Source of the DNA: Burkholderiales bacterium
Lineage (GTDB): Bacteria > Pseudomonadota > Gammaproteobacteria > Burkholderiales > Burkholderiaceae_C
DNA length: 42,636 nucleotides
Assembly (NCBI GenBank): GCA_947453625.1
Contig: CANGHK010000045.1
Coordinates: 1-42,636, forward strand
Reading direction: 5' to 3'
In this document: piece after piece, positions 302 to 40,828 of the stretch
How the letters are laid out: the number at the start of each line of letters is the position of its first letter
How positions within the stretch are numbered: position 1 is the stretch's first letter
Made by a program: the position numbers and the translations under genes
The notes under the pieces: generated by a model
Told to the model about the DNA's origin: nothing
What the model saw: only the letters and a program-made list of their open reading frames with translations
The model's database searches: none

Positions 302-412
302 GCAAGAAGTGGTTATTGGTCACTCAAAGGTAGGTGGCACGCACTTGATTAAAGATGGTAATTAATGGTAGTATTAAAATAACCAATCATTACAAATAAA
401 ATAAGGAACTGT

Positions 413-685
413 ATGAAAAGATTCGCCGCTCTAATTTTTGTATTGCAAATATTTGGTTGTGCAAGCTCTGGTATTGTTCAAACTGGCCCAAATTCGTACA
501 TGCTCGCAAAGTCAGAGTGGGGGTTTACTTCAGGCGCTGTTCATACAGCAAGGCTAATGCAAGAGGCTTCTGAATTCTGTAGCCTTAAAGGTAAACAGAT
601 CAATGTCATAAGTAGACGAAGCAACGATGTGGAGCTTGGTAAAACACCTGCAGCCGAAGTGAATTTTCAATGTATCAATAAATGA
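413..685 (+). CDS. Small lipoprotein, unknown function
   Basis: A 90-residue protein with a short basic N-terminus, a hydrophobic stretch and a lipobox ending at Cys16 (IFGC), so it should be exported and lipidated by the Lsp/Lnt pathway. The mature part is small and polar with two more cysteines (Cys56 and Cys87), which could form a disulfide. An AAGGA-type ribosome binding site lies about 6 nt before the ATG. The gene and its flanks (about 350-730) are clearly AT-richer than the rest of the window, and codons favour A/T at third positions, which marks recent acquisition. I recognise no domain, and no neighbour suggests a role beyond membership of the genomic island. Confidence 0.75.
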   Translation: MKRFAALIFVLQIFGCASSGIVQTGPNSYMLAKSEWGFTSGAVHTARLMQEASEFCSLKGKQINVISRRSNDVELGKTPAAEVNFQCINK

Positions 686-933
686 TTAAATTAAAAATTC
701 TCAGATCAGATTTGCAGAATACTCTAGTTGCATGACTAAAGCCGGCCCGCGTGCTAGGCCGTCCTTGCCTCAACGATCCGCCACGATTTTTCAGTGTGGG
801 TCGTTTGTTGCTGAAGACACGACCAGCCAGCAACGGCAAGTCAGGGTGGATCTGCCACCTGTCCCCCTGCTGGCTGCGGTCACCCCGGCTCAAAACCCTT
901 ACCCTGCGCGCCACCCGATGCAACACCCGTTTT

Positions 934-970
934 GGGTGGCTCAATACAGTTGACTATTATTGAGCCACCC
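934..970. repeat. 13-bp perfect inverted repeat in the recombinase promoter
   Basis: The left arm GGGTGGCTCAATA (934-946) is repeated in inverse at 958-970, with an 11-bp spacer. A weaker partial copy (TTTGAGCC followed by GGGTGCC) lies at about 992-1010. The right arm falls between the -35 and -10 boxes of the promoter for the serine recombinase, so a bound dimer would block transcription. It could be the binding site of the recombinase itself or of another repressor. The rest of the 327-bp gap between 686 and 1012 shows no gene I can support. Confidence 0.7.
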
Positions 971-978
971 CCTACAAT
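950..978 (+). promoter_or_regulatory. Sigma70-type promoter for the serine recombinase
   Basis: TTGACT (950-955) and TACAAT (973-978) are separated by exactly 17 bp, each one mismatch from consensus. Transcription would start near 985, about 28 nt before the recombinase ATG. Confidence 0.7.
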
Positions 979-1012
979 CTGAGCTACACAATTTGAGCCA
1001 GATGGGTGCCCA

Positions 1013-1579
1013 ATGTCAGCTGTGATTGCCTACCTCCGTGTCTCCACCGACGATCAGACGTGCGAAAACCAGCACCGCCAAGTTGAGCACCGCTTTAAAG
1101 TGGACAAGTGGTTCACGGAGGAGGGCGTGTCGGGTTCGGTTGCTGCCCGAACGCGGCCCGCCATGTCTGCACTGCTTGCCTATGCCCGAGAAGGTGACAC
1201 GGTAGTGGTGGTTGCCATTGATCGGCTGGGCAGAAACACCATAGACGTTTTGAGCACCGTGGAAGCACTTCAGTCCAAGGGCGTCTCAGTTATCAGCCTG
1301 CGAGAGGGCTTTGATCTGTCCACGGCCTGCGGCAAGTTGATGCTGACAATGATGGCCGCGTTCGCGCAGATGGAGCGCGAGAACATGAAATCGCGGCAAC
1401 TTGCCGGCCTTGAGCGGGCAAGGGCCGAGGGCAAGGCTCTGGGCCGTGCAAAGACGATTGACGATGCCGAGGTTGCCCAGTGGCGGTCGGCAAACAGCGC
1501 CAGCATCAAGCAGACTGCCGGGCAGTTCGGGATCTCTGTCGCTTCGGTCAAGCGCGCATGCTCTGCGGCAATCGCCTGA
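1013..1579 (+). CDS. Serine recombinase (resolvase/invertase family)
   Basis: A 188-residue site-specific recombinase of the small serine type (Tn3 resolvase/DNA invertase). The N-terminal catalytic domain has AYLRVSTDDQ, with Arg9 and nucleophile Ser11, and the conserved IDRLGRN segment with its Asp-Arg pair near residue 67. A long helix follows (MMAAFAQMERE). The last 40 residues form a helix-turn-helix (IKQTAGQFGISVASVKR) that would bind the crossover site. Length and domain order are normal, so the protein looks intact. It lies alone: there is no Tn3 transposase, invertible segment or obvious partner gene. It probably resolved or inverted part of the island, or belonged to a lost transposon. 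The short leader carries a promoter overlapped by an inverted repeat, which suggests self-repression. Confidence 0.9.
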   Translation: MSAVIAYLRVSTDDQTCENQHRQVEHRFKVDKWFTEEGVSGSVAARTRPAMSALLAYAREGDTVVVVAIDRLGRNTIDVLSTVEALQSKGVSVISLREGFDLSTACGKLMLTMMAAFAQMERENMKSRQLAGLERARAEGKALGRAKTIDDAEVAQWRSANSASIKQTAGQFGISVASVKRACSAAIA

Positions 1580-1641
1580 GGTTGAGGCCCAGCTAATTGG
1601 TGATCTGTGCACTTTTCTAACTCTGAAAGTGAGCGTATCAG

Positions 1642-3054
1642 CTACGCAGTTCGCTTCAAGGGCACTACGTTGGATGCTTGGTCGCCCGTCGTGATGTCCT
1701 TCAGCTTGGCGCCGAGGGCGGTGAAGGCTTGCGCCTGTTCTTGCACGCGGCGGTCGCGAATGTAGATCCGAGTCATTCGGTCTTGGGTGATGTGGTTCAG
1801 GCACTCGTTGATGACATCACCACCAAAGCCCAGTTGCGCCATCAAAGTCGCGGCTGTTCGACGAAGGTCGTGTGCGGTCCATTTCCCTCCTGAAAGCTGC
1901 AAGGACTTCGCTTCTTTGGATCGTCCCTTCAGTTGAGCTTCAGGTTCTTTCTGGCGGTCGGCCAGTTGCTTCCCGAAGCTCTTCACGTCAACGGGACCTG
2001 TCCCCTTGCTGTTTGGGCAGACCCATCGGTATGGCTTGCCTTCGCTGTCTGTTTCATGGATTTCTTTCAGCGCTTGAAGGTGCTCTGCGGCGAAGTCTGA
2101 CAAGTGGATGGTGTGGTCCCGCTGATTCTTCGTGTCTGGCAGGTACCAGGTGCGTGCCGCCAGGTTGACATTGATCCACTCGGCGTTCATCAGTTCGCCA
2201 ACGCGGCAGCCGGTTGACAGAATCAGCCAGACAGCATGCTCACTGCGTACCTGCATCCTCGCATTGGGCAACTGCATCGCTAGTGCTTTGATCTCTTCAA
2301 CACTAAGGGCTCTGTCTCGCTCAACATCAGCGCCGCCAGCGTCGCGCTTGGTCAATAGTTGAATCGGGTTGACGGCGATGATCTCGCGGGACAGGGCGAA
2401 CCGCATCATTTGCTTCAAGTCGGCAAGGAGCACATTGCAGGTTCGCAGACTTCCTTTGGTTCGATGCTGATCAATGATGGCCAGTACGTCTGCCTTTCGC
2501 ACATCATCTGTCGCCATGTCGCCGAGCGTAGGGAAGACATGCCTTTCAAACTGGGCGCGCGTGTATGCGCCGTCATCTTTCCTCCCGACTCGCTTGCCGT
2601 CAGCCCGGACATGCGATGCCAGTTCAACGGAGGACCAACGCTCAAAAAGTTGGCGAACAGTCAACCGCCGCTGTCGCTCAAGTTCGTCCCGTTCTTCCTT
2701 TTCAACGGCTTCACGCCGGCTCTTGTCGGCCTCATGCTGCTTGTCCTGTCGTTGTTGGTCAAGGTGGGCTTGAACATCCTTGATCCCACTGCGGTACAAC
2801 TCCGACAACTCGCTTGCCCTTTGATAGGCCTGGGCGACGGTGAGTCCCCCGTTGTTGCCCTTCGGGTGGTAGGAGCCGATGGGCATGAACAGCCGGTTTC
2901 CCTTGGAGTTGGTGTAGCGGAAGTAGAAGTGTCGTTCTCCTTTGGGCGTGATTCGGCCAAGGAAGACACCGCCACCACGGTTGTAGGGCTGCGAAATCCA
3001 CTGATCCTGCGTTGTCGCCTTGCCCTGCATCCCTCTGTCCGTGATCATCACCAT
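1642..3054 (-). CDS. Tyrosine-type site-specific integrase (P4 family)
   Basis: A 470-residue integrase that would insert and excise the island at a tRNA gene. The N-terminal part (about 20-90, FLGRITPKGERHFYFRYTN) is the arm-binding domain of P4-like integrases. A charged linker (95-130) follows, then a SAM-like core-binding domain (about 132-225) and the catalytic domain. The catalytic set is complete: Arg284 in STGCRVGEL, His395 and Arg398 in AHDLRRT, His421 in LNHI and nucleophile Tyr431 in TRIYIRDR, so it is probably active. The gene starts about 200 bp from the tRNA-Pro fragment and reads away from it. Three repeats and an AT-rich hairpin lie in that gap and are candidate arm or excisionase sites. 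Confidence 0.93.
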   Translation of the reverse strand: MVMITDRGMQGKATTQDQWISQPYNRGGGVFLGRITPKGERHFYFRYTNSKGNRLFMPIGSYHPKGNNGGLTVAQAYQRASELSELYRSGIKDVQAHLDQQRQDKQHEADKSRREAVEKEERDELERQRRLTVRQLFERWSSVELASHVRADGKRVGRKDDGAYTRAQFERHVFPTLGDMATDDVRKADVLAIIDQHRTKGSLRTCNVLLADLKQMMRFALSREIIAVNPIQLLTKRDAGGADVERDRALSVEEIKALAMQLPNARMQVRSEHAVWLILSTGCRVGELMNAEWINVNLAARTWYLPDTKNQRDHTIHLSDFAAEHLQALKEIHETDSEGKPYRWVCPNSKGTGPVDVKSFGKQLADRQKEPEAQLKGRSKEAKSLQLSGGKWTAHDLRRTAATLMAQLGFGGDVINECLNHITQDRMTRIYIRDRRVQEQAQAFTALGAKLKDITTGDQASNVVPLKRTA

Positions 3055-3083
3055 CGCTTAGCTCCTTTGCTGGCGTGCACCCT

Positions 3084-3122
3084 GGTCACCGTTGTGATTC
3101 TGGTCACCGTTCAGTCACCGTT
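3084..3122. repeat. Three TCACCGTT direct repeats upstream of the integrase
   Basis: TCACCGTT occurs at 3086-3093, 3104-3111 and 3115-3122; the first two copies share GGTCACCGTT. They sit 32-68 bp upstream of the integrase ATG, between the gene and the attachment site, where arm-type integrase or excisionase sites are normally found. The binding protein is inferred. Confidence 0.55.
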
Positions 3123-3178
3123 TGCTGCTGGATTCCAGTGTACCGAAGAGGGCTTTTTTGGACTAATTATTTTTGTAA

Positions 3179-3197
3179 GTCGTTGATTTTTAACGAC
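3179..3197. other. Hairpin in the AT-rich integrase leader
   Basis: GTCGTT and AACGAC form a 6-bp stem around a 7-nt loop, followed on the plus strand by A6T5. The surroundings (about 3150-3215) are AT-rich. It could be a terminator for a transcript, an IHF-bendable site of the attachment complex, or part of the integrase promoter. Confidence 0.4.
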
Positions 3198-3256
3198 AAA
3201 AAATTTTTCTACGGACTATGCAGGTGATCCTAAGCCCATCCTAGACTGATATTTTG

Positions 3257-3305
3257 TTGCATGGGGTGCAAGGGGTCGCGAGTTCGAATCCCGCCGTCCC
3301 GACCA
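3257..3305 (+). other. Attachment site: 3' 49 nt of tRNA-Pro(GGG)
   Basis: The segment starts in the anticodon stem (TTGC), continues through loop ATGGGGT with anticodon GGG, the variable region, the T arm (GCGAG-TTCGAAT-CCCGC) and the acceptor strand, and ends in CCA. The 5' half of a tRNA-Pro (D arm and acceptor) is not present upstream, where unrelated AT-rich DNA begins. It is therefore a duplicated tRNA 3' end, the usual product of integration by tyrosine recombinases into a tRNA gene. The intact tRNA-Pro(GGG) should lie at the other island end, left of this window. Confidence 0.85.
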
Positions 3306-3322
3306 TTTATATCGTTTGAAAT

Positions 3323-3362
3323 CAACAGCTTAGCGGCTTCGGCAGCTAGGCTGTTGTTCTTT
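3323..3362 (+). terminator. Intrinsic terminator of the original tRNA-Pro unit
   Basis: CAACAGC pairs with GCTGTTG, then a T-G wobble, then TAGC with GCTA, around a ten-base loop. TTCTTT follows. It sits 18 nt after the CCA end, as expected for the chromosomal tRNA terminator left on the core side of the attachment site. From here to 3572 I see no gene. Confidence 0.7.
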
Positions 3363-3572
3363 GTGGGTCACGCCTTGGTGGTCGAACGCCGATTTCTGGC
3401 AACTTCCTGGCGACTCTGGCGCGCCGACGATCGTCATCGCTGTGTAGGGCATCGACTTGTTGCGCCAAGCCGGTGACAGGCGCGGTCAGCGTTTCTTTGT
3501 CAGCGCCGCGCAGTCGGTGATTCGAGAGGGCTTGAAGGCGTTGCGGGACGGGAAGGAAACTTCACGCCACCC

Positions 3573-4520
3573 TCAAGCCGGGTCCAACGCCTTCTCGCCG
3601 CGCGTCGTCAGCAGGCGCAAGGCACCGAAAGCGATCAGCAGGCCCGACACCACGGCCACGATGCCCAGCACCTGCAGCACCGAGGGTACCTCGCCCAGCA
3701 CCGGTATCGCCAGCAGCGACGCAGCACCCGGCACCAGGGCACCGAAAAAGGCGGCGCGCCCCGAGCCCAGCAGCGCCGCCGCGCGGCTGAACGCAAGCAC
3801 CGCGACCAGCCCGGCACCCAGGCCTTGCGCCAGCACCTGCACCAGCAACATGGCTGCGCCGGCGTTGGCCAATCGATCCAGGTCGGCCAGCATCAGGAAG
3901 CCCGGTGCGAACAGCAGGAAGGACAGCACCACGACGACTGCGGTCACGCGCAGCGGGTCGACTTGCCAGCGCCGCGACAGCGCGCCGAACAGTCCCCAGC
4001 AGCAGCCGGCCGCCGCGAACATCAGGTCGCCCAGCAGCGTCAGGCCACCCTCGCGGTGCACCAGGCTGTCGCCGCCCATGAAGGCCAGGCCCAGCACCAC
4101 GAAGCCCGCGCCAAAGGCGGTCTCGCGCGTCAGGCGCTGCTGCGCCAGCCAGGCCGACAGGCCCAGTCCGGCCAGCATCTGGCAGGCCGGCGCGATCACC
4201 GCGCCGTGGGCCAGCGGCGCGCAGGTGAAGCCGGTCATGAACAGCAGGCTGAATCCGGGGCCGGCCAGCAGGGCCAGCAGCAGGCCGCGTCGCCAACCTA
4301 TGCCGGCCAGGTCGCGCCATCCCCAGCGCCACAGCAGCGGCGCCATCAGCAAGGCGCCCGGCGCAAAGCGCAGCAATGTCAGGTCGCCCGGGCTCAGCCC
4401 GGCCTTGACGGCCAGGCGCGCCAGCACCGAGTAGCTGGCCCAGATGGCCGCAGCCAGCAAGCCCCAGCACAGGCCTGCCGCCGGCGACTGCGCCCCGGTC
4501 AGGGGCGGCGGGCGATGCAT
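3573..4520 (-). CDS. DMT-superfamily transporter (EamA type)
   Basis: About 315 residues with roughly ten hydrophobic segments in two similar halves, the arrangement of EamA/RhaT-type drug/metabolite exporters in the inner membrane. The first segment is GLCWGLLAAAIWASYSVLAR, followed by the LRFAPGALLMAPLL segment. The second repeat begins near LLGDLMFAAAGCCWGLFGAL. I chose the ATG that leaves about 15 residues before the first membrane segment; an in-frame ATG 54 nt upstream is also possible. The gene follows the GST gene by about 70 bp on the same strand, so the two may be co-transcribed. The substrate cannot be predicted; family members export amino acids, metabolites or drugs. Confidence 0.85.
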   Translation of the reverse strand: MHRPPPLTGAQSPAAGLCWGLLAAAIWASYSVLARLAVKAGLSPGDLTLLRFAPGALLMAPLLWRWGWRDLAGIGWRRGLLLALLAGPGFSLLFMTGFTCAPLAHGAVIAPACQMLAGLGLSAWLAQQRLTRETAFGAGFVVLGLAFMGGDSLVHREGGLTLLGDLMFAAAGCCWGLFGALSRRWQVDPLRVTAVVVVLSFLLFAPGFLMLADLDRLANAGAAMLLVQVLAQGLGAGLVAVLAFSRAAALLGSGRAAFFGALVPGAASLLAIPVLGEVPSVLQVLGIVAVVSGLLIAFGALRLLTTRGEKALDPA

Positions 4521-4590
4521 GTGATCAGCCGGTCCGAGAGCTGACCGACGCGCTGCGGCCCATGCCGAGGCCAAGCCCGGGCCTCAGCCG

Positions 4591-5322
4591 TCATGCCAGG
4601 TCGAACTCGGGATAGCGGCGAAAGATGCCCTGCTCGTTGAACGGAATGCGCCGCGCGCTGCCCAGGTAGGCCGCCACTTTGGGCAGCGCGGCGACGCGAT
4701 CGTGCAACTGCACGATGGCGGGGGTTTGGGCCAGCGCTTTTTCGGCGACCAGCGGGAAGGCGTAACGCAGGCCTTCGATCAACTGGAACAGCGACAGGTC
4801 GGCGTAGCTCAGCTTGCCGGCGACCAAGTGGCGGGGGCCGGCCGGGTTGCGCAGCACGATGGTCTCGAACCACTGCAGGTACTTGGGCAGGCGCGCGCCG
4901 CAGAACTCGGCCGCGCGGCGCAGCGCCTCGGGCTGCTGGTCCTCGTAATACAGGCTGGCGGCGATCGGATGGTGGGTGTCGTGGGCCTCGGTCACCATGT
5001 CGGCGATGGTCAGCTGGATCTGCTGGGTCCAGACGCGGGCCCGCTCGCTGCGCGCCACCAGCTTGAGCTCAGGCGCCAGGTAATGCAGGATCGCGGCCGT
5101 CTGGCCGATCATCATCTCGCCGTCCTTCAGGAAGGGCGGTGCGAAGGGCGGCTGCGTTTCATGGGGGTCGTTCATCCGGCGCAGCATCGCGGGCACGCCT
5201 TGCCCCGCGTCCTGCGCGCCGCGCGCCACATCGACATAGGGTGCGCCGGCGGCCTCGAGTGCCAGCCTGACGAATTCGCCGCGGCCCTGAATGGTCGGCC
5301 AGTAGTGGAGTTCATATGCCAT
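4591..5322 (-). CDS. Glutathione S-transferase family protein
   Basis: A 243-residue soluble protein. The N-terminal thioredoxin-like domain begins MAYELHYWPTIQGRGEFVRL, similar to sigma/alpha-like GSTs in which the Tyr near residue 7 activates glutathione. The GQTAAILHYLAP segment matches the conserved glutathione-contacting turn (usually ES/QS-xAI-x-YL), with Gln-Thr here. The all-helical C-terminal domain holds KLSYADLSLFQLIEGL, the GST N-capping region. The ATG was chosen because the thioredoxin fold begins immediately after it. It probably conjugates or reduces an electrophile with glutathione. The DMT exporter gene just downstream may share its transcript. Confidence 0.85.
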   Translation of the reverse strand: MAYELHYWPTIQGRGEFVRLALEAAGAPYVDVARGAQDAGQGVPAMLRRMNDPHETQPPFAPPFLKDGEMMIGQTAAILHYLAPELKLVARSERARVWTQQIQLTIADMVTEAHDTHHPIAASLYYEDQQPEALRRAAEFCGARLPKYLQWFETIVLRNPAGPRHLVAGKLSYADLSLFQLIEGLRYAFPLVAEKALAQTPAIVQLHDRVAALPKVAAYLGSARRIPFNEQGIFRRYPEFDLA

Positions 5323-5481
5323 GGCCCGGACTGTAGCCTGCTGTCCTCTCCCCGCGCCAACCCAGCCACCCGCGCGATCCCGCAAGCCCGTGGCCGGCGG
5401 ACCGAGGGCTGTCCCGGGGACGTGGCGCCAGCCGGCTGGCCTATGCTCGTCGCCACCCCTTGGCTTCAGCGCAACCGCCTC

Positions 5482-6600
5482 ATGACCTCACCCATCGCCG
5501 ACCTGCTCGACTACCAGATCGCCGCCCGCTACTGCCCCGGTGCGCTGGTGCATGTCGAAGCGGCCGGCCGCACCCTGGCCCGCCATGCCGCCGGACGCAT
5601 TCGACCCGACAGCGATGCGCCCCTGCATGCCGGCGTGCGCTTTCGCGTCGCGTCGCTGACCAAGCCGGTGGTGACGCTGGCCGCGCTGATGCTGGTCGAC
5701 GAGGGCCGGCTGGACCTGGACGCCGCGGTGGGCGACTACCTGCCGGTGCTGCGTGACCTGCGGCTCAAGGCCGGGCAAGCCCCGCGCGTCGCACCCACCG
5801 TGCGCGACCTGATGCGCCACACCTCGGGCCTGGCCTACCCGCACGAGATCGCTGACGCCGGCTTGCGCGCGGAATGGATGCGGGCCGGCATCACGACCGG
5901 GATGACCGGGCTCGATTCGGCCGCCTTCCTGGCCGTGCTGGCCGGCTTGCCGCTGGTGGCCGAGCCCGGCACCGCTTTCCGCTATGGCTATTCGACCGAT
6001 GTGCTGGGCTGCATCATCGAGCAGCTCGACGGCTTGCCGCTGGCCGAAGCGCTGCGCCGGCGCATCTTTGCGCCGCTCGGCATGCGTCAGACCGGCTTCG
6101 GGATCGCTGCCGACGAGCACGCCGACTTGGCCAGCGCCCATGCCGACGACCTGGCCTGGCACGCGACGGTGCCGGCGATCGGCCAGCGCCAGGCCGGCCA
6201 ACCCTGGATGGACAGCGGCGGCGGCGGGCTGGTCAGCACGCTGGACGACTACGTTGCCTTCGGCCGGCTGCTGGCCAATGGCGGGGTGTTCGAGGGCCGG
6301 CGCCTGGTGTCGACCGCGCTGTTTGCCGAGCTGTCGCGCAACCAGTTGCCCGAGGGCGTGGACGGTCCGGCCGGCTATTGCGGCCCGGGCTTCGGCTTCG
6401 GACTCGGGCTGGCGGTGCGCAATGACTGGGGGCCTTCGGCGATGCCCTGCAGTGCCGGTGAGTTGACCTGGTCGGGCATCAGCGGCACGGCGCTGTTCGT
6501 CCAGCCGCGAGCGCAGTGGTTTGCGGTCTTGTTCAGCGCCAACATGGCCGCGCGCATGATGGCGCGGATGGCGTTTCGCCGCGCCGCCGGCCCGTGCTGA
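5482..6600 (+). CDS. Serine hydrolase, beta-lactamase/class C penicillin-binding fold
   Basis: About 372 residues of the beta-lactamase-related family that includes esterases, EstB and D-aminopeptidases. Ser58-Leu-Thr-Lys61 in RVASLTKPV is the catalytic SxxK motif. Tyr170-Ser-Thr in YGYSTDVLG replaces the usual Tyr-x-Asn, so the third position is Thr. The segments DLMRHTSGL and GLVSTLDDYVAFGRLL are typical of the family. No signal peptide is evident from the chosen ATG, so it is probably cytoplasmic and more likely an esterase or amidase than a cell-wall enzyme. It is divergent from the GST gene, with about 160 bp between the starts. The substrate is unknown. Confidence 0.88.
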   Translation: MTSPIADLLDYQIAARYCPGALVHVEAAGRTLARHAAGRIRPDSDAPLHAGVRFRVASLTKPVVTLAALMLVDEGRLDLDAAVGDYLPVLRDLRLKAGQAPRVAPTVRDLMRHTSGLAYPHEIADAGLRAEWMRAGITTGMTGLDSAAFLAVLAGLPLVAEPGTAFRYGYSTDVLGCIIEQLDGLPLAEALRRRIFAPLGMRQTGFGIAADEHADLASAHADDLAWHATVPAIGQRQAGQPWMDSGGGGLVSTLDDYVAFGRLLANGGVFEGRRLVSTALFAELSRNQLPEGVDGPAGYCGPGFGFGLGLAVRNDWGPSAMPCSAGELTWSGISGTALFVQPRAQWFAVLFSANMAARMMARMAFRRAAGPC

Positions 6601-6787
6601 GGCTGGGTTTTCAGGTCCAAGGGCAGGGCGCGCGCTTGATGGTTTGACTGTTCGGCGGTTCGACTGCTGCGCCGGCGGGGCGATGGGCCGGCTGTGGCGC
6701 TCTGCCGCGCCGGATCGGCCCCTGGCCAGGTGCTGCTGGGCTCCGCGGGGAACAGCCCGATAGCCTGGTCACCAAGGGCTTGCCATA

Positions 6788-6816
6788 TTGACAGTGACGT
6801 CAGTGTCACTTACCGT
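6788..6816 (+). promoter_or_regulatory. Promoter and palindromic operator of the acyl-CoA operon
   Basis: TTGACA (6788-6793) is a consensus -35. The sequence 17 bp on, TACCGT, is only a weak -10. AGTGAC (6793-6798) and its inverse GTCACT (6805-6810) flank six bases and fill the spacer, so a dimeric repressor bound here would occlude RNA polymerase. The regulator is probably the TetR protein encoded about 180 nt downstream. Confidence 0.55.
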
Positions 6817-6887
6817 TGATGCGAGCGGCAAGACCTGCGGCAGTCTGGGTGAGACGGGCCGGCAAGCAGACCGCACAGGAGCAGCCC

Positions 6888-6992
6888 ATGGCCCCCTCAA
6901 GCGGCCGCAAGATCACCCGCAGCAGCTTCAACCGCCGCACCGCCTGCAAGCGGCTACCGGCACGCTGCCCGCACCGGACCTCGTCTTGGTGA
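6888..6992 (+). other. Possible 34-codon upstream ORF before the TetR gene
   Basis: An AGGAG box lies 7 nt before ATG 6888, the best ribosome binding site in the leader. The frame it opens (MAPSSGRKITRSSFNRR...) runs 34 codons to a TGA that overlaps a GTG in the TetR frame. It could be a coupled leader peptide, or the true TetR start followed by a frameshift. I cannot tell which. Confidence 0.3.
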
Positions 6993-7750
6993 CGGTGCCA
7001 AAGCCGCACCCGGCGCGCCACGGCCTGGTGCGCCGCCCGGACCCGGCCGTCGGCGCGGTGCGGCGCGCGCGCGGGTCGGCCGAAGAGACCGCGCAGGTGC
7101 TGCTGGCCTCGGCGCAGCAGGTGTTCGGACAAAAGGGCTATGTGCGCACGACGGTGCAGGACATCATCGAAGGCACGGGCTTGAGCCGCGGCGCTTTCTA
7201 CCGTTACTTCGGCAGCACCGACGAGATCTTCGTCGCGATGGTCACCCGCGTGGTCGACGAACTGATCGTCTCGTCGCGCGAGCACTCGGGCCGCACGCTG
7301 CGTGAGCGGGTGTTCGGCGGCAACCTGCGCTACCTGCAGATCTTCGCCCGCCACCGTGGCGTGATGCGGGCGCTGTTCGAGGCCGCCTATGTCAACCCGC
7401 AGATCGCCGCGATCCAGGCCCGCATGCGCAGCGCCTACCTGCGCCGGCTGCGCGACCACCTGGTGCGCCAGCTGGCGCTGGGCCGTTGCCAGCCGCTGGA
7501 CCCCGACGCCGCCACGCTGGCGCTGGGGATGATGGTCGAAGGCGCGGCCCAGGCCTGGGTGGTGATGGGTCTGGAGCCCTTCGAGCAGGCGCTGGACCTG
7601 GAGCGGCTGTGCACCCAGGTCACCGAGATCTGGTGCCGTTCGGTCTATTTGGCGCCCGACCGCCCGATACCCGAGCCCGCGGCCCCGGCCGCGTCAGACC
7701 GCCAGCGCCTGCTGGCCGGCGAAGTCGCCCCCCAGGAGGACGGACCATGA
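6989..7750 (+). CDS. TetR-family transcriptional regulator
   Basis: The DNA-binding domain is clear: AQQVFGQKGYVRTTVQDI, then the turn and recognition helix TGLSRGAFYRYFGSTDEIF. A helical ligand-binding domain follows (about 150 residues), then a Pro/Ala-rich tail. The start is uncertain: the only long upstream extension begins inside the promoter, so the GTG used here, or a later GTG, is more likely. This gives about 253 residues, longer than the usual 190-220. The stop overlaps the next ATG (ATGA), so it is the first gene of an acyl-CoA operon. It probably represses the operon through the palindrome at 6793-6810 until an acyl-CoA-type ligand binds; the ligand is inferred from context. Confidence 0.85.
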   Translation: MTVPKPHPARHGLVRRPDPAVGAVRRARGSAEETAQVLLASAQQVFGQKGYVRTTVQDIIEGTGLSRGAFYRYFGSTDEIFVAMVTRVVDELIVSSREHSGRTLRERVFGGNLRYLQIFARHRGVMRALFEAAYVNPQIAAIQARMRSAYLRRLRDHLVRQLALGRCQPLDPDAATLALGMMVEGAAQAWVVMGLEPFEQALDLERLCTQVTEIWCRSVYLAPDRPIPEPAAPAASDRQRLLAGEVAPQEDGP

Positions 7751-8691
7751 GCAGCCCGCAGATCGAGACGAGCTTGGACGGCGGGGTGCTGACCCTGACG
7801 CTGAACCGGCCCGACAAACTCAACGCCTACACCGCGCAGATGGGCCGCGAACTTGCCGAGGCCTTCCAGCGCGCCGATACCGATGACGCCGTGCGCGTGG
7901 TGATCGTCACCGGCGCCGGCAAGGGTTTTTGCGCCGGCGCCGACCTCTCGGGAGGCGCCGACAGTTTTGGCGGCGCCGGTGCGGAGCAGGTCTTCGGCAA
8001 GGGTGGTCCGGTGCGCCAGGGGGGCAGCTTCGTCGAGGCGATCTTCAATTGCCGCAAGCCGTCGATCGCCGCGATCAACGGCGCGGCGGTGGGCGTGGGC
8101 TTGACGCTGACGCTGCCGATGGACATCCGTCTGGCGGCCGAGGGCGCGCGTTTCGGCTTTGTCTTCGCCCGCCGCGGCCTGGTGCCCGAGGCCGGCAGCG
8201 CCTGGTTTCTGCCGCGCATCGTCGGCCTGCCGCAGGCGCTGCGCTGGTGTTATTCGGGACGGGTGTTCGACGCCGCCGAGGCCTTGCGCGGCGGCCTGGT
8301 CGAGGCGGTTGTGCCGGCCGAGGACCTGCTGGCGCGGGCGCGCGAGATCGCCCGCGAGATCGTCGACAACACCGCCCCGGTTGCGATCGCGCTGACGCGC
8401 CAGATGCTGTGGCGCTGCAGCGCCGAGCCCTCGCCGCTGGGCCTGCTGGCCATCGACGGGGCGATGGCCTTGCACCTGGGCGCCGGACCCGATGTGGGCG
8501 AGGGGGTGGCGGCCTTTCTGGAGCGCCGCCCGCCGCATTTTGCCGGTCGGGTGTCGACCGACCTGCCGCCCCAGTACCCCTGGTGGCCAAGGGCTGACAG
8601 TCCTGCCGTGACACCCGCCAACCTGCCCGCTCACCCGCCGGCTGAACAGTCTGCTGACCTGCCTGCCAACCGAGCCTCCGATGAGCACTGA
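7747..8691 (+). CDS. Crotonase-family enzyme, likely enoyl-CoA isomerase
   Basis: A 314-residue crotonase-fold protein. It has the CoA/oxyanion-hole segments GFCAGADLS (near 60-68) and AAINGAAVGVG (109-119). Enoyl-CoA hydratases use two glutamates, in GGGCE and G-x-PE. Here these positions are Thr120 (GVGLT) and Phe140 (FGFVF). Glu148 in GLVPEAG sits where Delta3,Delta2-enoyl-CoA isomerases keep their single catalytic Glu (compare GLITEGG in yeast Eci1). By this comparison it is more likely an isomerase than a hydratase. The last 40 residues are a Pro/Ala-rich tail. It overlaps the TetR gene by 4 nt and the kinase gene by 11 nt, so all three are translationally coupled. Confidence 0.82.
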   Translation: MSSPQIETSLDGGVLTLTLNRPDKLNAYTAQMGRELAEAFQRADTDDAVRVVIVTGAGKGFCAGADLSGGADSFGGAGAEQVFGKGGPVRQGGSFVEAIFNCRKPSIAAINGAAVGVGLTLTLPMDIRLAAEGARFGFVFARRGLVPEAGSAWFLPRIVGLPQALRWCYSGRVFDAAEALRGGLVEAVVPAEDLLARAREIAREIVDNTAPVAIALTRQMLWRCSAEPSPLGLLAIDGAMALHLGAGPDVGEGVAAFLERRPPHFAGRVSTDLPPQYPWWPRADSPAVTPANLPAHPPAEQSADLPANRASDEH

Positions 8692-9709
8692 ACTCGACGA
8701 TTTCGCCGCCGGCCTGCAGTCCCTGGTCAGGCGTCTGCTTCCCGATGCCCAGGGCATCGCCGGGCTGCAGCGGCTGTCGGCCGGCGCCACGCTGCAGACC
8801 TGGTCGTTCGACGCGGTCGGCCCGGGGCTGTGCCATCCGCTGATCCTGCGCCGTTCGCCCGGCGGACTGCGCGGCGCCGAATCGCTGCCGCTGCCGCTGG
8901 AGGCAGCGCTGATCAGCGCAGTGGCCCGCGGCAACCCCGACCTGGCCGCCTGCTTGCCCGAGGTCGTGCACAGCTTGACGCCTGACGACGCACTGGGCGA
9001 CGGCTTTCTGATGACGCGCATCGCCGGCGAGACCATCCCGCGCAAGATCCTGCGCGACGCGGCCTTCGCCTCGGTGCGGCCGCGGTTGGTGGCCCAGTTC
9101 GGCCGGGTGCTGGGCGCGATCCACCGGGTCGACACACAAACCCTGCCCGACCTGCCGCTGCGCTCCACCGCGGCGCTGCTGGCGACGATGCAGCGCCGCA
9201 ATGCCGCACTGGCGCGGCCCAGCGCGGTGTTCGACTTCAGCCTGCGCTGGCTGCAAGACTATCTGCCCGCCGACCCGGCCGTGCCGCGCCTGGTGCACGG
9301 CGACTTCCGCATCGGCAACCTGATCGTCGAGGCGACCGGCGGCCAGGGCCTGCGCGCGGTGCTGGACTGGGAGATCGCCCACCTGGGCGACCCGGCCGAG
9401 GACCTGGCCTGGGTCTGCCTGCCACCCTGGCGCTTTGGCCAGATCGACCGGCCGGTGGCCGGGCTGGGCTCACGCGAGGCCTTGTTCAGCGCCTGGCAAG
9501 ACGCCACCGGCGAGGCGGTGGACCCGGCGCGTGTGCGCTGGTGGCAGGCCATGGGCAGCGTGCGCTGGGGCCTGGGCTGCGCCGGCATGTGCGACTGGTT
9601 CGACAGCGGGCGCGACCGCACGGTCGAACGCGCCATGATCGCCCGACGCGTCTCCGAAAACGAACTCGACCTGCTGCGCCTGCTGGCGTCGGAGCACGCC
9701 CATGCTTGA
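8681..9709 (+). CDS. APH-like phosphotransferase (ACAD10/11 kinase-domain type)
   Basis: A 342-residue member of the aminoglycoside-phosphotransferase/choline-kinase superfamily. It shows the Brenner motif LVHGDFRIGNL (His206-Gly-Asp208, Asn213) and the metal-binding LDWE (Asp229-Glu231). The N-lobe has RLSAGATLQTWSF in place of a classic P-loop, as in this branch. Homologues are the kinase half of animal ACAD10/ACAD11 and LvaA of Pseudomonas levulinate catabolism, which phosphorylate the 4-hydroxyl of 4-hydroxyacyl-CoAs. Its position beside an acyl-CoA dehydrogenase and a DUF6285 protein supports that role here over antibiotic resistance. The exact substrate is not shown by the sequence. Confidence 0.85.
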   Translation: MSTELDDFAAGLQSLVRRLLPDAQGIAGLQRLSAGATLQTWSFDAVGPGLCHPLILRRSPGGLRGAESLPLPLEAALISAVARGNPDLAACLPEVVHSLTPDDALGDGFLMTRIAGETIPRKILRDAAFASVRPRLVAQFGRVLGAIHRVDTQTLPDLPLRSTAALLATMQRRNAALARPSAVFDFSLRWLQDYLPADPAVPRLVHGDFRIGNLIVEATGGQGLRAVLDWEIAHLGDPAEDLAWVCLPPWRFGQIDRPVAGLGSREALFSAWQDATGEAVDPARVRWWQAMGSVRWGLGCAGMCDWFDSGRDRTVERAMIARRVSENELDLLRLLASEHAHA

Positions 9710-10133
9710 CCATCCGACAGCCCCCGACATGCTTGAGGCGGTGGCCCGTCTGCTGCGCGACACGCTGATCCCGCAACTGCCACCGGCGGTGGTGTTCCAG
9801 GCCAGGGTGGCCGCCAATGCGGTCGATCTGGTGGCGCGCGAGATGCGGCTGGGCGCGCAGGCGCAGGACCAGGCCCATGGCCGGCTGCAGACCCTGCTGG
9901 GCCAAGAGGGATCGCTCGCGACGCTGGAGTCCGCGCTCTGCACCGGCCTGCGCCTGGGCGAGATCGCCGCCGATGCACCGGGCCTGCAGGAGCATCTGTG
10001 GGCCACCACGCTGGCCAAGCTGGCGATCGACCAGCCGACTTACGCCCCCTACCGACATGCGCTGGAGCAGCGCGCCACCGATTCAGTCACCGATTTGCCC
10101 GCCACCACCACCACCACCCACCCCAAGGAGTGA
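9702..10133 (+). CDS. DUF6285-type small protein, probable kinase partner
   Basis: A 143-residue, mostly helical protein, rich in Ala and Leu, without signal or membrane segments. The motif-like stretches LLRDTLIPQLPPAVVFQARVAA and LRLGEI match my memory of the DUF6285 family, which is almost always encoded next to an APH-like kinase and an acyl-CoA dehydrogenase. In the levulinate pathway a small protein (LvaB) forms a complex with the kinase LvaA; by position this protein could do the same. It overlaps the kinase gene by 8 nt and ends 6 nt before the dehydrogenase gene. The C-terminal tail has a run of threonines (TTTTTHPKE), and the end of the gene doubles as ribosome binding site for the next one. 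Confidence 0.75.
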   Translation: MLDHPTAPDMLEAVARLLRDTLIPQLPPAVVFQARVAANAVDLVAREMRLGAQAQDQAHGRLQTLLGQEGSLATLESALCTGLRLGEIAADAPGLQEHLWATTLAKLAIDQPTYAPYRHALEQRATDSVTDLPATTTTTHPKE

Positions 10134-10139
10134 GACCCG

Positions 10140-11417
10140 ATGGACTTCAACCTACCCCAAGAACTGACCGAGTTCCTGAAGAACCTCGATCGGTTCATCG
10201 ACCAGGAGATCCGGCCGCTGCAGGCCAGGGATGACAACGAGCGCTTCTTCGACCACCGCCGTGAATGGGCGCGCACCGACTTCGAGGCCGGCGGCCTGCC
10301 GCGCCACGAATGGGAGGCCTTGCTGATCGAGTGCAAGCGGATCGCCGACAAGGCCGGCTTCTACCGGCTGTCGCTGCCCAAGGAGTACGGCGGCCAGGAG
10401 GTTGGCAACCTGTGGATGGCGGTGATCCGCGACCATCTCGCGTCCAAGGGACTGGGCTTGTTCAACGACCTGCAGAACGAGCATTCGGTGGTCGGCAACT
10501 TCCCCATCATCGTGATGCTGCGCGACTTCGGCACGCCGGCGCAGAAAGAGAAGTTCATCAACGGCCAACTGAACTTCCAGACCCGCATCACCTTCGGCCT
10601 GACCGAGCCCAACCACGGCTCGGACGCCACCCACATGGAGACCAAGGCGGTGCCCGAGACCCGCGACGGTGTGGAGGGTTGGCTGATCAACGGCGAAAAG
10701 ATGTGGACCACCGGCATGCACACGGCCACGCATTGCGCGCTGTTTGCGCGCACTTCGGGCAAGGCCGGCGACGGCATAGGCATCACCTGTTTTCTCGTGC
10801 CCGCCGACAACCCCGGCGTGAAGATCGAGGAGTACCTGTGGACCTTCAACATGCCCACCGACCACCCGCGCGTGAGCTTCACCAACGTCTGGGTGCCGGC
10901 GGACGCCATGTTCGGCGAGACAGGCCGCGGCCTGCCACTGGCGCAGTCCTTCGTCCACGAGAACCGCATCCGCCAGGCCGCCAGCTCGCTGGGCGCGGCG
11001 CAGTTCTGCGTCAACGAGAGCGTCAAGTACGCGCGTGAGCGCAAGCCTTTCGGCCAGGAGCTGGCGCGCAACCAGGGCATACAGTTTCCCTTGGTCGAGC
11101 TCGCCACGCAGTGCGAGATGCTGCGCCTGCTGATCCTCAAGACCGCGTGGCAGATGGACCAGATGCCCCACCCCGAGGTCGAGAAGCAGCTCTCCGACAA
11201 AGTCTCGATGTGCAACTACTGGGCCAATCGCCTGGTGTGCGAGTCGGCAGACCGCGCGATGCAGGTGCACGGCGGCATTGGCTATTCGCGCCACAAGCCC
11301 TTCGAGCATATCTACCGCCACCACCGGCGCTACCGCATCACCGAGGGATCCGAAGAGATCCAGATGCGCAAGGTCGCCGGTTTCCTGTTCGGCTACATGG
11401 GACCGAACAAGTTCTGA
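10140..11417 (+). CDS. Acyl-CoA dehydrogenase family protein
   Basis: A 425-residue flavoenzyme with the full acyl-CoA dehydrogenase layout. The N-terminal helical domain runs to about 140. A beta domain holds the FAD/substrate segment ITFGLTEPNHGSDAT and the FAD-contacting EKMWTTG. The C-terminal helical domain has ERKPFGQ and QVHGGIGYSRHKP. The canonical catalytic base is present as Glu402 in RITEGSEEIQ. It is somewhat longer than short-chain dehydrogenases (about 380) and resembles the CaiA/ACAD10-11-like branch. Together with the kinase and DUF6285 genes it would form a 4-hydroxyacyl-CoA phosphorylation/elimination module (inference). An AAGGAG box (10126-10131) precedes the ATG at good distance. 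Confidence 0.92.
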   Translation: MDFNLPQELTEFLKNLDRFIDQEIRPLQARDDNERFFDHRREWARTDFEAGGLPRHEWEALLIECKRIADKAGFYRLSLPKEYGGQEVGNLWMAVIRDHLASKGLGLFNDLQNEHSVVGNFPIIVMLRDFGTPAQKEKFINGQLNFQTRITFGLTEPNHGSDATHMETKAVPETRDGVEGWLINGEKMWTTGMHTATHCALFARTSGKAGDGIGITCFLVPADNPGVKIEEYLWTFNMPTDHPRVSFTNVWVPADAMFGETGRGLPLAQSFVHENRIRQAASSLGAAQFCVNESVKYARERKPFGQELARNQGIQFPLVELATQCEMLRLLILKTAWQMDQMPHPEVEKQLSDKVSMCNYWANRLVCESADRAMQVHGGIGYSRHKPFEHIYRHHRRYRITEGSEEIQMRKVAGFLFGYMGPNKF

Positions 11418-11451
11418 CCCCGTTTTGCATCCTCAACCAATGGAGACAAGC

Positions 11452-12660
11452 ATGAACAAGACACAAGGCATGAAGCGCCGTTCCGTCGTCCTGGCACCGC
11501 TGGCTGCGGCCGCCGCATCGGTGCTGTCCGGTGCCGCCTGGGCGCAGAAGAAGTACGGCCCGGGTGTCACCGACACCGAGATCAAGATCGGCCAGTCGAT
11601 TGCCTACAGCGGTCCGGCATCGGCCTATGGCCAACTCGGCCGGGCCGAGGCCGCGTACTTCAAGTTCCTGAACGACAAGGGCGGCATCAACGGCCGCAAG
11701 ATCAATTTCATCTCGCTGGACGACGGATTCTCACCGCCCAAGGCGGTGGAGATGACGCGCCGGCTGGTCGAGCAGGACGAGGTGGCGCTGATGTTCGGCA
11801 TGCTGGGAACGCCGCTCAACACCGCCACCCGCCCCTACCTGAATCAGAAGAAGGTGCCGCAGTTGTTCATCGCGGCGGGCTCGGAAACCTTTGCGCAACC
11901 GGAGAAGTTTCCGTGGACCATGGGCTGGCAGCCCACGCTGCGCGGCGAGGCCATCTTCTACGCCAAGAGCATTCTCGCCACCCATCCGAATGCCAAGATC
12001 GGCGTGCTCTACCAGGACGACGACTTCGGCAAGGAGTTGGTGGCCGGCCTGAAGGAAGGCCTGGGGGACAAGGCCGGCCAGGTGGTCAGCGCTGAAAGCT
12101 TCCAGGCCACCGACCCGACGGTCGACTCGCAGCTGATCACCATCAAGGGTGCGGGCTGCGACACGCTGATGCTGTTCGCCTACGCCAAGCAGGCGGCGCA
12201 GGCGATCCGCAAGGTCTCCGACATGGGCTGGAAGCCCGACACCTACCTGCACCTGGGATCGGCATCGGTCGGCGCCACGCTGATCCCGGCCGGGCTGGAC
12301 AAGTCGGTGGGCATCAAGACCGCCGGCTTCCTGAAGGACGTGACCGATCCGCAGTGGGCCCAGGACGCGGAACTGGCGCCCTTCTTCGACTGGATGAAGA
12401 AGTACATGCCCGACGCCAAGCTGGAGGATTCGCTGAACCTGGCCGGCTGGGCTTATGCGCAGACCATCGAGCAGGTGCTGCGCCAGTGCGGCGACGATCT
12501 GACGCGCGAGAACATCATCCGCCAGGCCGCCAACCTGAAGAACTACCGCAACCCGGCGCTGCTGCCTGGCAGCCTGATCAACACGTCCCCCAACGACTAC
12601 CGGGTCGTGAAGTACATGAAGCTGCAGCGCTTCAACGGCAAAATCTGGGAGCCGGCTTGA
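11452..12660 (+). CDS. Liv-type ABC transporter substrate-binding protein
   Basis: A 402-residue periplasmic binding protein (LivK/Peripla_BP_6 fold). The N-terminus has a basic stretch (MKRRSVVLAPLAAAAASVLS) and a cleavage site near AWA-QKKYGPG, so it is exported. IKIGQSIAYSGPASAYGQLG and the NDKGGINGRKINFISLDD segment are hallmarks of the family. No permease or ATPase gene adjoins it, so it must use components encoded elsewhere, perhaps the importer at 35443-38807. As last gene of the operon it probably captures the compound, such as an aromatic or fatty acid, that the operon degrades. GGAGA lies 7 nt before the ATG. The spacing after the dehydrogenase gene (34 nt) suggests the same transcript. 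Confidence 0.9.
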   Translation: MNKTQGMKRRSVVLAPLAAAAASVLSGAAWAQKKYGPGVTDTEIKIGQSIAYSGPASAYGQLGRAEAAYFKFLNDKGGINGRKINFISLDDGFSPPKAVEMTRRLVEQDEVALMFGMLGTPLNTATRPYLNQKKVPQLFIAAGSETFAQPEKFPWTMGWQPTLRGEAIFYAKSILATHPNAKIGVLYQDDDFGKELVAGLKEGLGDKAGQVVSAESFQATDPTVDSQLITIKGAGCDTLMLFAYAKQAAQAIRKVSDMGWKPDTYLHLGSASVGATLIPAGLDKSVGIKTAGFLKDVTDPQWAQDAELAPFFDWMKKYMPDAKLEDSLNLAGWAYAQTIEQVLRQCGDDLTRENIIRQAANLKNYRNPALLPGSLINTSPNDYRVVKYMKLQRFNGKIWEPA

Positions 12661-34074: not shown

Positions 34075-34169
34075 TAACACTGGTTCCCGTGCCCTACGCT
34101 GGGTTGGGTGTTTCGATCCGACGGGTCTGAAGCGCTTCATCGCGACGGCAAATACACAGGAGACAAGCC

Positions 34170-35378
34170 ATGTCCAACGCTCTGCGCCGCATCTCGGCGG
34201 CAATCGGTATCGCCTTCGCGCTGGCCAGCGCGCCTTCGCACGCGCAGGAACTGAAGTTGGGCGCGCTGTTTCCGTTCAGTGGCGGACTCGCCTTGCTTGG
34301 CGACGAAAGTTTTCGCGGCGTGCAACTGGCAGTGGACGAGCGCAACGCCGCCGGCGGCATCAACGGGCGGCAGATCGCGCTGGCCAAGGCCGACGCGGTC
34401 GACGCCAGCCAGGCGGTCGGCGAAGCGCGTCGCTTGACGTCGGTCGAAAACGTCGTTGCGGTGTTCGGCAGTTATGCGTCGGGCATCTCCTCGGCGGCCA
34501 CCCAAGTGACCGAACTGGCCGGGGTGCCGTACTTCGAATTGGGTGCCACGGCCGACACGATCACGACGCGCGGCTTCAAGTACTTGTTTCGCGTCAACCC
34601 GACCGCCAAGAACATCGGTGACCGAACGCTCGAGGCCGTCGTCAAGGTGGTCGCGCCTGCCCTCAAGGTCGACCCGAAGACGCTGAAGCTCGCCATCATC
34701 CACGAGGACGGCCCTTACGGTTCGCTGGTGGCCGCGGCGCAGAAAGAAGAGGCCAAGCGGCTCGGTCTGAACGTCGTCGAAGCGCAGGCCTATTCACCCA
34801 AGACGGTCGACCTGTCCTCGGTGATCCTGCGTCTCAAGGGCGCCGGTGCCGACCTGGTCTTGCACACGGCCTATCAGAACGATGCGGTGCTGTTCTTCCG
34901 GCAAGCGGCTGCCGCGGGCTACAAACCGCGTGCCGTGATCGGCGGCGGTGGCGGTTATTCGCTGACCGACACGGCCCAGGCCGTGGGCGCACCGATGGAA
35001 GGCGTGTACGACGTCGACTTCCCGCAGATCACCATGAACGCGGCGGGCGCGCCGGGCCTGAACGATTTCGTCGCGGCCTACCAGAAGAAGTTCTCGTCGG
35101 CGCCGCGCTCCGGCCACAGCCTGGCCAACTACGTCGGCGCCAAGGCGATGCTGGAGGCGCTGGCGCGCGCCAAGTCGACCGACAAGGACAAGATCCGCGA
35201 AGCGGTGCTGGCCTACCGCGTGCCGGTCGGCAGCACGGCCACGGGCTGGGGCATCCAGTTCAATGAGGCCGGGCAGAACTCGCTGGGTTCGCTCAACCTG
35301 ATGCAGTGGCAGCAAGGCAAGCTGGCCACCGTGTTCCCGGCCTCGGTGGCCAACGCCAAGGCCATCGCCTCCAACTGA
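34170..35378 (+). CDS. Liv-type ABC transporter substrate-binding protein
   Basis: A 402-residue periplasmic binding protein. The signal peptide is MSNALRRISAAIGIAFALAS with cleavage after SHA (SHA-QELKLG). LKLGALFPFSGGLALLGDES and NAAGGINGRQIALAKADAVD are typical of the LivK/amide-binding branch. It delivers its ligand to the LivH-LivM-LivG-LivF complex encoded directly downstream. The ligand may be a branched-chain amino acid, an amide or an aromatic acid; the sequence alone does not decide. AGGAGA precedes the ATG. The 64-bp gap to livH contains a 9-bp perfect hairpin that may raise expression of this gene relative to the membrane components. Confidence 0.92.
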   Translation: MSNALRRISAAIGIAFALASAPSHAQELKLGALFPFSGGLALLGDESFRGVQLAVDERNAAGGINGRQIALAKADAVDASQAVGEARRLTSVENVVAVFGSYASGISSAATQVTELAGVPYFELGATADTITTRGFKYLFRVNPTAKNIGDRTLEAVVKVVAPALKVDPKTLKLAIIHEDGPYGSLVAAAQKEEAKRLGLNVVEAQAYSPKTVDLSSVILRLKGAGADLVLHTAYQNDAVLFFRQAAAAGYKPRAVIGGGGGYSLTDTAQAVGAPMEGVYDVDFPQITMNAAGAPGLNDFVAAYQKKFSSAPRSGHSLANYVGAKAMLEALARAKSTDKDKIREAVLAYRVPVGSTATGWGIQFNEAGQNSLGSLNLMQWQQGKLATVFPASVANAKAIASN

Positions 35379-35410
35379 GCCGCGGCTTCCCCAAGCCTTC
35401 TTCGCCAACA

Positions 35411-35432
35411 GCGTGCGGGTGTGCCCGCACGC
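35411..35432 (+). other. Intercistronic hairpin between binding protein and livH
   Basis: GCGTGCGGG and CCCGCACGC form a 9-bp perfect stem with loop TGTG. It lies 32 nt after the binding-protein stop and 10 nt before the livH ATG, next to AGGAAA. Such stems after binding-protein genes typically protect the upstream mRNA, giving more binding protein than permease. There is no T run, so complete termination is not expected. Confidence 0.6.
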
Positions 35433-35442
35433 AGGAAATCTC

Positions 35443-36315: not shown

Positions 36316-36328
36316 GGTGGCGCGCAGC

Positions 36329-40645: not shown

Positions 40646-40828
40646 TCAGGCTGCCACGGCTGCGCGGCTGAAGAAGCCCTGCAGCGCGGCCGCCATCTCG
40701 GCACGCACTGGTTCGCCCGACACCACCACGTCGATCATCGTCAGCGAGGTGTGGGTGTGGCCGCGCGACGCGATGTGCTGCACCCGGTCGCCGGCTGCGG
40801 CCGGCTGGCGCGAGGCATTGCAGGCCAT
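40646..40828 (-). pseudogene. Unrecognised gene fragment on the minus strand
   Basis: Sixty residues starting MACNASRQPAAAGDRVQHIA and ending in GFFSRAAVAA, with strong G/C bias at third codon positions, which suggests a real coding relic. It includes RGHTHTSLTMIDVVVSGE, which I do not recognise. Its ATG overlaps the ATG of the truncated traD frame on the other strand (palindrome CCATGG), so it is probably the tail of a gene cut by the same rearrangement that truncated traD. Confidence 0.35.

Follow-up and report, generated by a model that had tools for sequence, protein, structure and literature searches.

Organization of the locus

The window, by which we mean the whole 42,636-nt stretch analysed here (contig CANGHK010000045.1 of assembly GCA_947453625.1, from a Burkholderiales bacterium; GC 66.6%), carries a cluster of six genes in which an APH-family kinase, a DUF6285 protein and an acyl-CoA dehydrogenase (ACAD) stand side by side, and it is this trio, above all its dehydrogenase, that is the subject of the present analysis. 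The original prediction for this DNA had described a tightly packed cluster with a TetR regulator and a crotonase before the trio and a Liv-type binding protein after it. All of these genes were confirmed by Pfam matches, and the packing is as described, with all six genes on the + strand and no gap larger than 34 bases. The features are:

6788-6816, +: predicted promoter and TetR operator, TTGACA-N17-TACCGT with an inverted repeat in the spacer
6989-7750, +: TetR-family regulator, first gene of the operon (PF00440, E 3.5e-14; GTG start assumed)
7747-8691, +: crotonase-fold protein, isomerase-like by residues (PF00378, E 5.3e-52)
8681-9709, +: APH-family kinase, LvaA homologue (PF01636, E 7.8e-29)
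9702-10133, +: DUF6285 protein, LvaB homologue, presumed kinase subunit (PF19802, E 2.6e-30)
10140-11417, +: acyl-CoA dehydrogenase of the clade named here 'ACAD-B' (F271, N275, R278, Q279, S282, Glu402; PF00441, E 5.8e-42)
11452-12660, +: Liv-type periplasmic binding protein (PF13458, E 2.9e-50)

Through the first four genes the end of each overlaps the start of the next, and a 6-base gap then separates the DUF6285 gene from that of the dehydrogenase. Upstream of the TetR gene the palindrome AGTGAC-GTCAGT-GTCACT lies in the spacer between a -35-like and a -10-like box, and in L084 and L102, both from the same genus, the TetR gene is likewise preceded by a similar site, with a longer palindrome. 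We read 6788-6816 as the predicted promoter and palindromic operator, and the six genes as a single TetR-led operon.

Homology of the kinase pair to LvaA and LvaB

When plasmid records were searched by tblastn with the window DUF6285 protein, 26 records were found, among them two Pseudomonas aeruginosa plasmids in which the gene is named 'lvaB: 4-hydroxypentanoyl-CoA kinase subunit LvaB'. On one of these plasmids (L107) a PrpR-like regulator is followed by a kinase, lvaB, an acyl-CoA dehydrogenase, a 'glucose 1-dehydrogenase' and an acyl-CoA synthetase, which is the lva gene order, with the 'glucose 1-dehydrogenase' occupying the position of LvaD, a short-chain dehydrogenase/reductase (SDR). 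The annotated LvaB of L107 matches Pfam DUF6285 (PF19802, E 4.8e-24) and is 38% identical over 120 aa to the window DUF6285 protein, and between the window kinase and LvaA of the same plasmid the identity is 31% across 235 aa. These alignments identify the kinase as a homologue of LvaA and the DUF6285 protein as a homologue of LvaB, a subunit of about 12 kDa. That half of the original prediction, which had suggested an operon of the Lva type, therefore stands. According to an excerpt of PMC6692424, citing Rand et al., LvaB of P. putida binds LvaA in a pulldown and is required for growth on levulinate.

The catalytic Asp and Asn and the metal-binding Asp are retained in 115/115 DUF6285-paired kinases. 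The window kinase has intact catalytic residues and, although homologous to LvaA, is not part of the LvaA cluster (92/88) of the kinase tree. We had also considered the ACAD11 residues R86 and R176 as marks of CoA binding by the kinase, and dropped both because neither discriminates: the R176 region does not align, and the Arg before the alpha-C Glu is absent also from 12 LvaA-type kinases.

The model of the window DUF6285 protein is all helical (predicted local distance difference test score, pLDDT, 92.9; predicted template-modelling score, pTM, 0.71). A sequence comparison of DUF6285 with the PDB gave no match at E up to 10, and a Foldseek search of the PDB with the model gave 60 matches at E <= 10, of which none reached E <= 0.001; this is no proof of a new fold. 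Three plasmid loci of the LvaC type (L109, L112 and L113, from Thermus oshimai, Stutzerimonas and Azospirillum) have a histidine phosphatase gene directly after the DUF6285 gene.

The kinase might instead act on a small molecule unrelated to acyl-CoA, such as an antibiotic, choline or homoserine, in which case the place of its gene in this operon would be incidental. The LvaB-type partner protein and the genome-wide tie of DUF6285 to a CoA-dependent dehydrogenase, described below, make this very improbable.

Active-site residues of the dehydrogenase

Excerpts of PMC12440821 report that R626, H634 and R637 of mouse ACAD11 bind the 4-phospho group, that the catalytic residue is Asp753, and that substitution of these clamp residues by Ala or Leu had the most disruptive effect, that of R637K being only partial; HMMER's own chain numbering runs one lower than this, judged from D220. 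We compared these positions in the dehydrogenases found near DUF6285-kinase pairs (32 rows, of which L096 is too short at the clamp and catalytic sites), and the sequences split into two sets. Set A (L071-L076, L100 and L101) has the HCMR clamp and the catalytic Asp; set B, which includes the window dehydrogenase, has FVHENRIRQAASS or a near variant together with a catalytic Glu.

The residue comparison covered 108 B, 27 A and 20 other ACAD sequences. H634 is replaced by Q279 in 108/108 B sequences, where 27/27 A sequences have His, and R637 by S282 in 104/108, where all 27 of set A have Arg; in the window dehydrogenase F271 takes the place of R626, and the catalytic residue is Glu402 where the LvaC class has Asp. 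The NRIRQA helix is present in all 108 sequences above 550 bits. Ten residues (N275, R278, H159, R97, N359, H394, H395, R397, Y398 and T401) were found in every B sequence and in no more than 5% of the 20 others, and at N359 all 27 A sequences and all 20 others carry Lys. Common to B and the LvaC class are H242 (ACAD11 H597) and Q269, each in 26/27 of the latter and rare (5%) among the 20 other ACADs. The window dehydrogenase is 55-92% identical to ten other ACAD-B sequences and 28% identical to LvaC of L107; LvaC and ACAD10/11 are 56-62% identical, as given in an excerpt of PMC11342911.

Phylogeny of ACAD-B

A quick tree was built from 80 ACADs and a careful one from 59, the 21 rows left out of the latter being 8 near-identical class-A rows and 13 others, mostly long-branched or redundant; the ACAD directly beside a kinase-DUF6285 pair on a Variovorax plasmid was among the rows left out. 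In the 59-ACAD tree, B formed one clade (100/100), A together with mouse ACAD11 formed another (100/98), and the two joined as sisters (98/95), with the other ACAD of the Variovorax locus as the nearest row outside them (98/93). Constraining B to group with MCAD-like rows gave an approximately unbiased test p value (p-AU) of 0.011, and constraining A with them gave 0.003, the groups having been defined after the tree was seen.

As judged from these trees, the window dehydrogenase belongs to a separate clade, ACAD-B, that is sister to LvaC/ACAD11. The original prediction had made it a dehydrogenase of the ACAD10/11 (Lva) type, and this was not borne out: it is without R626, HCMR and the catalytic Asp, it has little identity to LvaC, and it falls in a clade of its own. 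We accordingly rejected its identification as LvaC, on the residues (no clamp, Glu402) as well as on the tree.

It might still be proposed, in line with the original prediction, that the operon encodes an ordinary Lva/ACAD10-11 pathway, in which the kinase makes 4-phosphoacyl-CoA from a different 4-hydroxy acid and ACAD-B removes the phosphate redox-neutrally with other binding residues. The homology of the kinase pair to LvaA and LvaB, the sister position of ACAD-B to LvaC/ACAD11, and the H242 and Q269 that the two dehydrogenase classes have in common are all consistent with this proposal. Against it stand the replacement of three clamp residues and the catalytic Asp, an isomerase-like crotonase, which suggests that the product carries its double bond in the wrong place, and the content of the organism's own genome, where seven further ACADs with the clamp motif fall in the LvaC/ACAD11 clade (L254 and L256-L261; no kinase match was found within the short loci around them), so that classical 4-hydroxy-acid chemistry need not use this operon. 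On balance we consider an ordinary Lva pathway rather unlikely.

Genome-wide association of ACAD-B with DUF6285

A kinase adjoins or is fused to the DUF6285 gene in 51 of 52 regions around such genes, the exception (L105) beginning at a contig end, and a B-type dehydrogenase accompanies 82 of 115 kinase-DUF6285 pairs. On these counts, and on those of co-occurrence below, we rejected an orphan or chance arrangement of the trio.

Among 299 evenly drawn Pseudomonadota genomes DUF6285 was found in 26 and ACAD-B in 19, and 19/19 of the ACAD-B carriers have DUF6285. The seven genomes with DUF6285 and without ACAD-B comprise six with an A-type ACAD beside the pair and one (G280) with an LvaA-cluster kinase. 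Six of the 19 have a pair away from any ACAD (L059, L060, L062, L066, L069 and L070); the kinase is outside the LvaA cluster and ACAD-B is elsewhere in the genome in all six. In an even sample of 296 Actinomycetota genomes ACAD-B was found in 13, every one of which belongs to the 26 that have DUF6285 (in 25 it exceeds the cut-off). Of the 13 Actinomycetota genomes with DUF6285 and no ACAD-B, four have a catalytic-Asp ACAD in the stretch (L319, L320, L324 and L325), with the clamp motif in three; no catalytic-Asp ACAD was found in the fetched stretches, some of them short, from the other nine. Each sample includes its centre genome, which was chosen for having ACAD-B; with the centres excluded the counts are 18/18 and 12/12. 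Fisher tests, with centres included and kinship ignored, gave 1.3e-24 for Pseudomonadota and 6.3e-16 for Actinomycetota.

The same association was observed in 40 relatives, where DUF6285 occurs in 16 genomes and ACAD-B in 14 of these and in no others; of the remaining two, G302 has a dehydrogenase that runs off its contig (L096) and G331 an A-type enzyme. A scan of named genomes with ACAD-B alone yielded 80 loci, the best 80 of at least 551 that were confirmed. Kinase and DUF6285 were inside the fetched locus in 58/80 of these named loci, and 21 of the other 22 genomes have DUF6285 elsewhere, giving 79/80 in total; in the exception (L148) ACAD-B lies 276 bases from a contig end. Kinase and DUF6285 are a single open reading frame in 30/80, and one such natural fusion (L172) was predicted to fold as a compact unit (pLDDT 92.9, pTM 0.91).

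Crotonases, neighbouring genes and related loci

The catalytic glutamates of hydratases, residues 144 and 164 of the rat enzyme, are replaced by Thr and Phe in the window crotonase, and an acid is found at the isomerase position, within VPEAGS, the site of the acid in isomerases and PaaG. These residues fit the original description of the crotonase as isomerase-like, though its NCBIfam subfamily is named a hydratase. Within 1.5 kb of the core genes we found 68 crotonases, 45 with Phe at the second hydratase position and the isomerase-position acid, 16 hydratase-like (EEL or EEM), all on the strand opposite the kinase, and 7 with other patterns. By these residue patterns, most crotonases near the core genes look like isomerases.

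Among 107 ACAD-B loci, some of them the same place fetched twice, the recurrent neighbours besides the trio are crotonases (24 loci) and CoA ligases (14 loci), and no other neighbour cluster recurs in more than 12. The CoA ligases tested are of a broad long-chain type or of the benzoate-CoA-ligase family. A plasmid of Sulfitobacter pontiacus has the order ligase, kinase, DUF6285, ACAD-B, two crotonases, thiolase and TRAP transporter. In the haloarchaeon Halomarina an ACAD-B 59% identical to that of the window adjoins a kinase, a 159-aa protein, Liv-type permeases and a ligase; the 159-aa protein (L110, 7406-7882, -), which stands at the place expected for DUF6285, gave no match to DUF6285 and is perhaps a diverged form of it.

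The genome from which the window comes has a second kinase-DUF6285 pair (L003, G000:C6:38000-56000, 400-11230), in a cluster of thiolase, kinase, DUF6285 and PaaG-like crotonase. Converging on this cluster are a gene of the benzoate-CoA-ligase family, one resembling alpha/beta hydrolases and a complete set of Liv transporter genes; no dehydrogenase adjoins the pair. This arrangement bears on a further proposal, namely that the operon serves one route through different intermediates, the kinase activating a hydroxylated acid elsewhere while ACAD-B is a normal dehydrogenase, linked to electron-transfer flavoprotein, for an unphosphorylated polar acyl-CoA. The second pair, with thiolase, crotonase and ligase-family gene and without an adjoining ACAD, agrees with such a division of labour, as do the catalytic Glu of ACAD-B and the separation of DUF6285 from ACAD-B in several genomes. 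It is less easily reconciled with the near-obligate co-occurrence of ACAD-B and DUF6285 in two phyla, or with the kinship of ACAD-B with phospho-acyl-CoA dehydrogenases, and we regard it as unlikely.

The Liv-type binding protein of the operon has no adjoining permease; a Liv-type binding protein, two permeases and an ATPase are encoded about 22 kb downstream of the operon (34131-38804). A phage-type integrase gene (1645-3054, -) lies near the left end of the window and a gene for a protein with a TraG/TraD C-terminal domain (40467-41855, +) near the right, and these are possible mobile element borders.

Proposed function

An Lva-type kinase pair that is found with a different dehydrogenase, one that itself nearly always occurs alongside DUF6285, points to a second way of removing hydroxyls from fatty-acid-like molecules. 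Gene content, homologies, residue replacements, clades, fusions and co-occurrence across genomes are computational results, and the chemistry proposed from them is inferred. The reading that we favour, with a probability of roughly 0.56, is that the operon encodes a two-step module that removes the hydroxyl of an acyl-CoA, parallel to but distinct from LvaA-LvaB/LvaC. By analogy with LvaAB and ACAD10/11, the kinase and DUF6285 protein would act as one enzyme that uses ATP to phosphorylate the hydroxyl of a CoA-bound acid. ACAD-B would then take the phospho-acyl-CoA, with Glu402 abstracting the alpha proton and FAD being used, to form an alpha,beta or extended double bond, the phosphate being lost directly or in the next step, and N275, R278 and Q279 may stand in for the ACAD11 clamp. 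The isomerase-like crotonase would shift the double bond of the enoyl-CoA so that beta-oxidation could continue, TetR would keep the operon repressed in the absence of the acid or its CoA ester, and the Liv-type protein would bind the acid outside the cell.

It is possible, at somewhat less than an even chance, that ACAD-B is a new type of flavin dehydrogenase for phospho-acyl-CoAs, with a phosphate-binding constellation different from that of LvaC/ACAD10/11, and either serving a hydroxyl elsewhere (e.g. at C5) or producing a beta,gamma-enoyl- or dienoyl-CoA that is corrected by the isomerase-like crotonase.

Several observations weigh against the two-step module. ACAD-B has none of the three clamp residues and lacks the catalytic Asp, and therefore it may carry out ordinary alpha,beta-dehydrogenation; the residue comparison is itself alignment-based. 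The window ACAD-B scores 145 bits against MCAD-like 1ukw and 108 bits against ACAD11, which by plain score brings it nearer to the former, and thus its sister relation rests on the trees. The kinase tree does not establish one clade for the kinases paired with B and those with no ACAD beside them, and the pair of L099 adjoins an ACAD-B although its kinase groups with kinases without DUF6285. No ACAD stands beside 18/115 kinase-DUF6285 pairs, and the co-occurrence counts come from searches for DUF6285, not for the kinase, and ignore kinship. In L108, on the Variovorax plasmid, a conventional MCAD-like ACAD comes directly after the pair, and this argues against any universal rule for DUF6285. 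Finally, the window crotonase matches PRK08260, an NCBIfam family named enoyl-CoA hydratase, above its cut-off.

If ACAD-B is indeed a new type of phospho-acyl-CoA dehydrogenase, this would constitute a second widespread prokaryotic route of hydroxy-acid deoxygenation, in Pseudomonadota and Actinomycetota, with ACAD-B and an adjacent kinase also in a haloarchaeon. Removal of acyl-CoA hydroxyls by phosphorylation and subsequent elimination is known from LvaABC and, since recently, from ACAD10/11; with a second clade of partner dehydrogenases, in which the clamp and the Asp are replaced, this chemistry would extend to a wider range of substrates. Such a clade would also give a function to many genes annotated merely as phosphotransferase family, DUF6285 or acyl-CoA dehydrogenase, and it opens to direct test which phospho-acyl-CoA ACAD-B accepts and how a Glu-type enzyme copes with the phosphate.

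Comparison with known systems

The kinase pair is already known in kind, and the dehydrogenase clade is apparently undescribed: in our literature search we found no paper describing the ACAD-B clade or its tie to the kinase-DUF6285 pair, and the term 'DUF6285' was not found in the literature searched. Searches directed at bacterial kinase/ACAD operons led to two papers on ACAD10/11, one on P. citronellolis and one on expression in Mycobacterium.

The 25-hydroxy steroid kinase of Sterolibacterium denitrificans (PMC8449060; PDB 9fsg and 9ft5) acts on the tertiary alcohol of a sterol; in the excerpted text of PMC8449060 its lyase partner is given as unknown and no DUF6285 or ACAD partner is named.

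The Lva pathway of P. putida, compared here through L107, resembles the window operon in having a homologous kinase next to a DUF6285/LvaB subunit and an acyl-CoA dehydrogenase in the same operon. The dehydrogenases differ, the LvaC class having R-x7-HCMR and a catalytic Asp where the window enzyme has F271, Q279, S282 and Glu402, and so do the regulators, TetR in the window operon and PrpR-like in Lva. Unlike Lva, the six genes of the window include neither an SDR (LvaD) nor a CoA synthetase (LvaE), an absence that the original prediction had remarked, and they add an isomerase-like crotonase and a Liv-type binding protein.

The animal proteins ACAD10 and ACAD11 likewise combine a kinase with an acyl-CoA dehydrogenase for hydroxyacyl-CoA, and their dehydrogenases and ACAD-B form sister clades. 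In ACAD10/11, however, the kinase and dehydrogenase domains are in one protein, whereas the fusions observed here join the kinase to DUF6285 instead, and the clamp residues of ACAD10/11 differ from those of ACAD-B.

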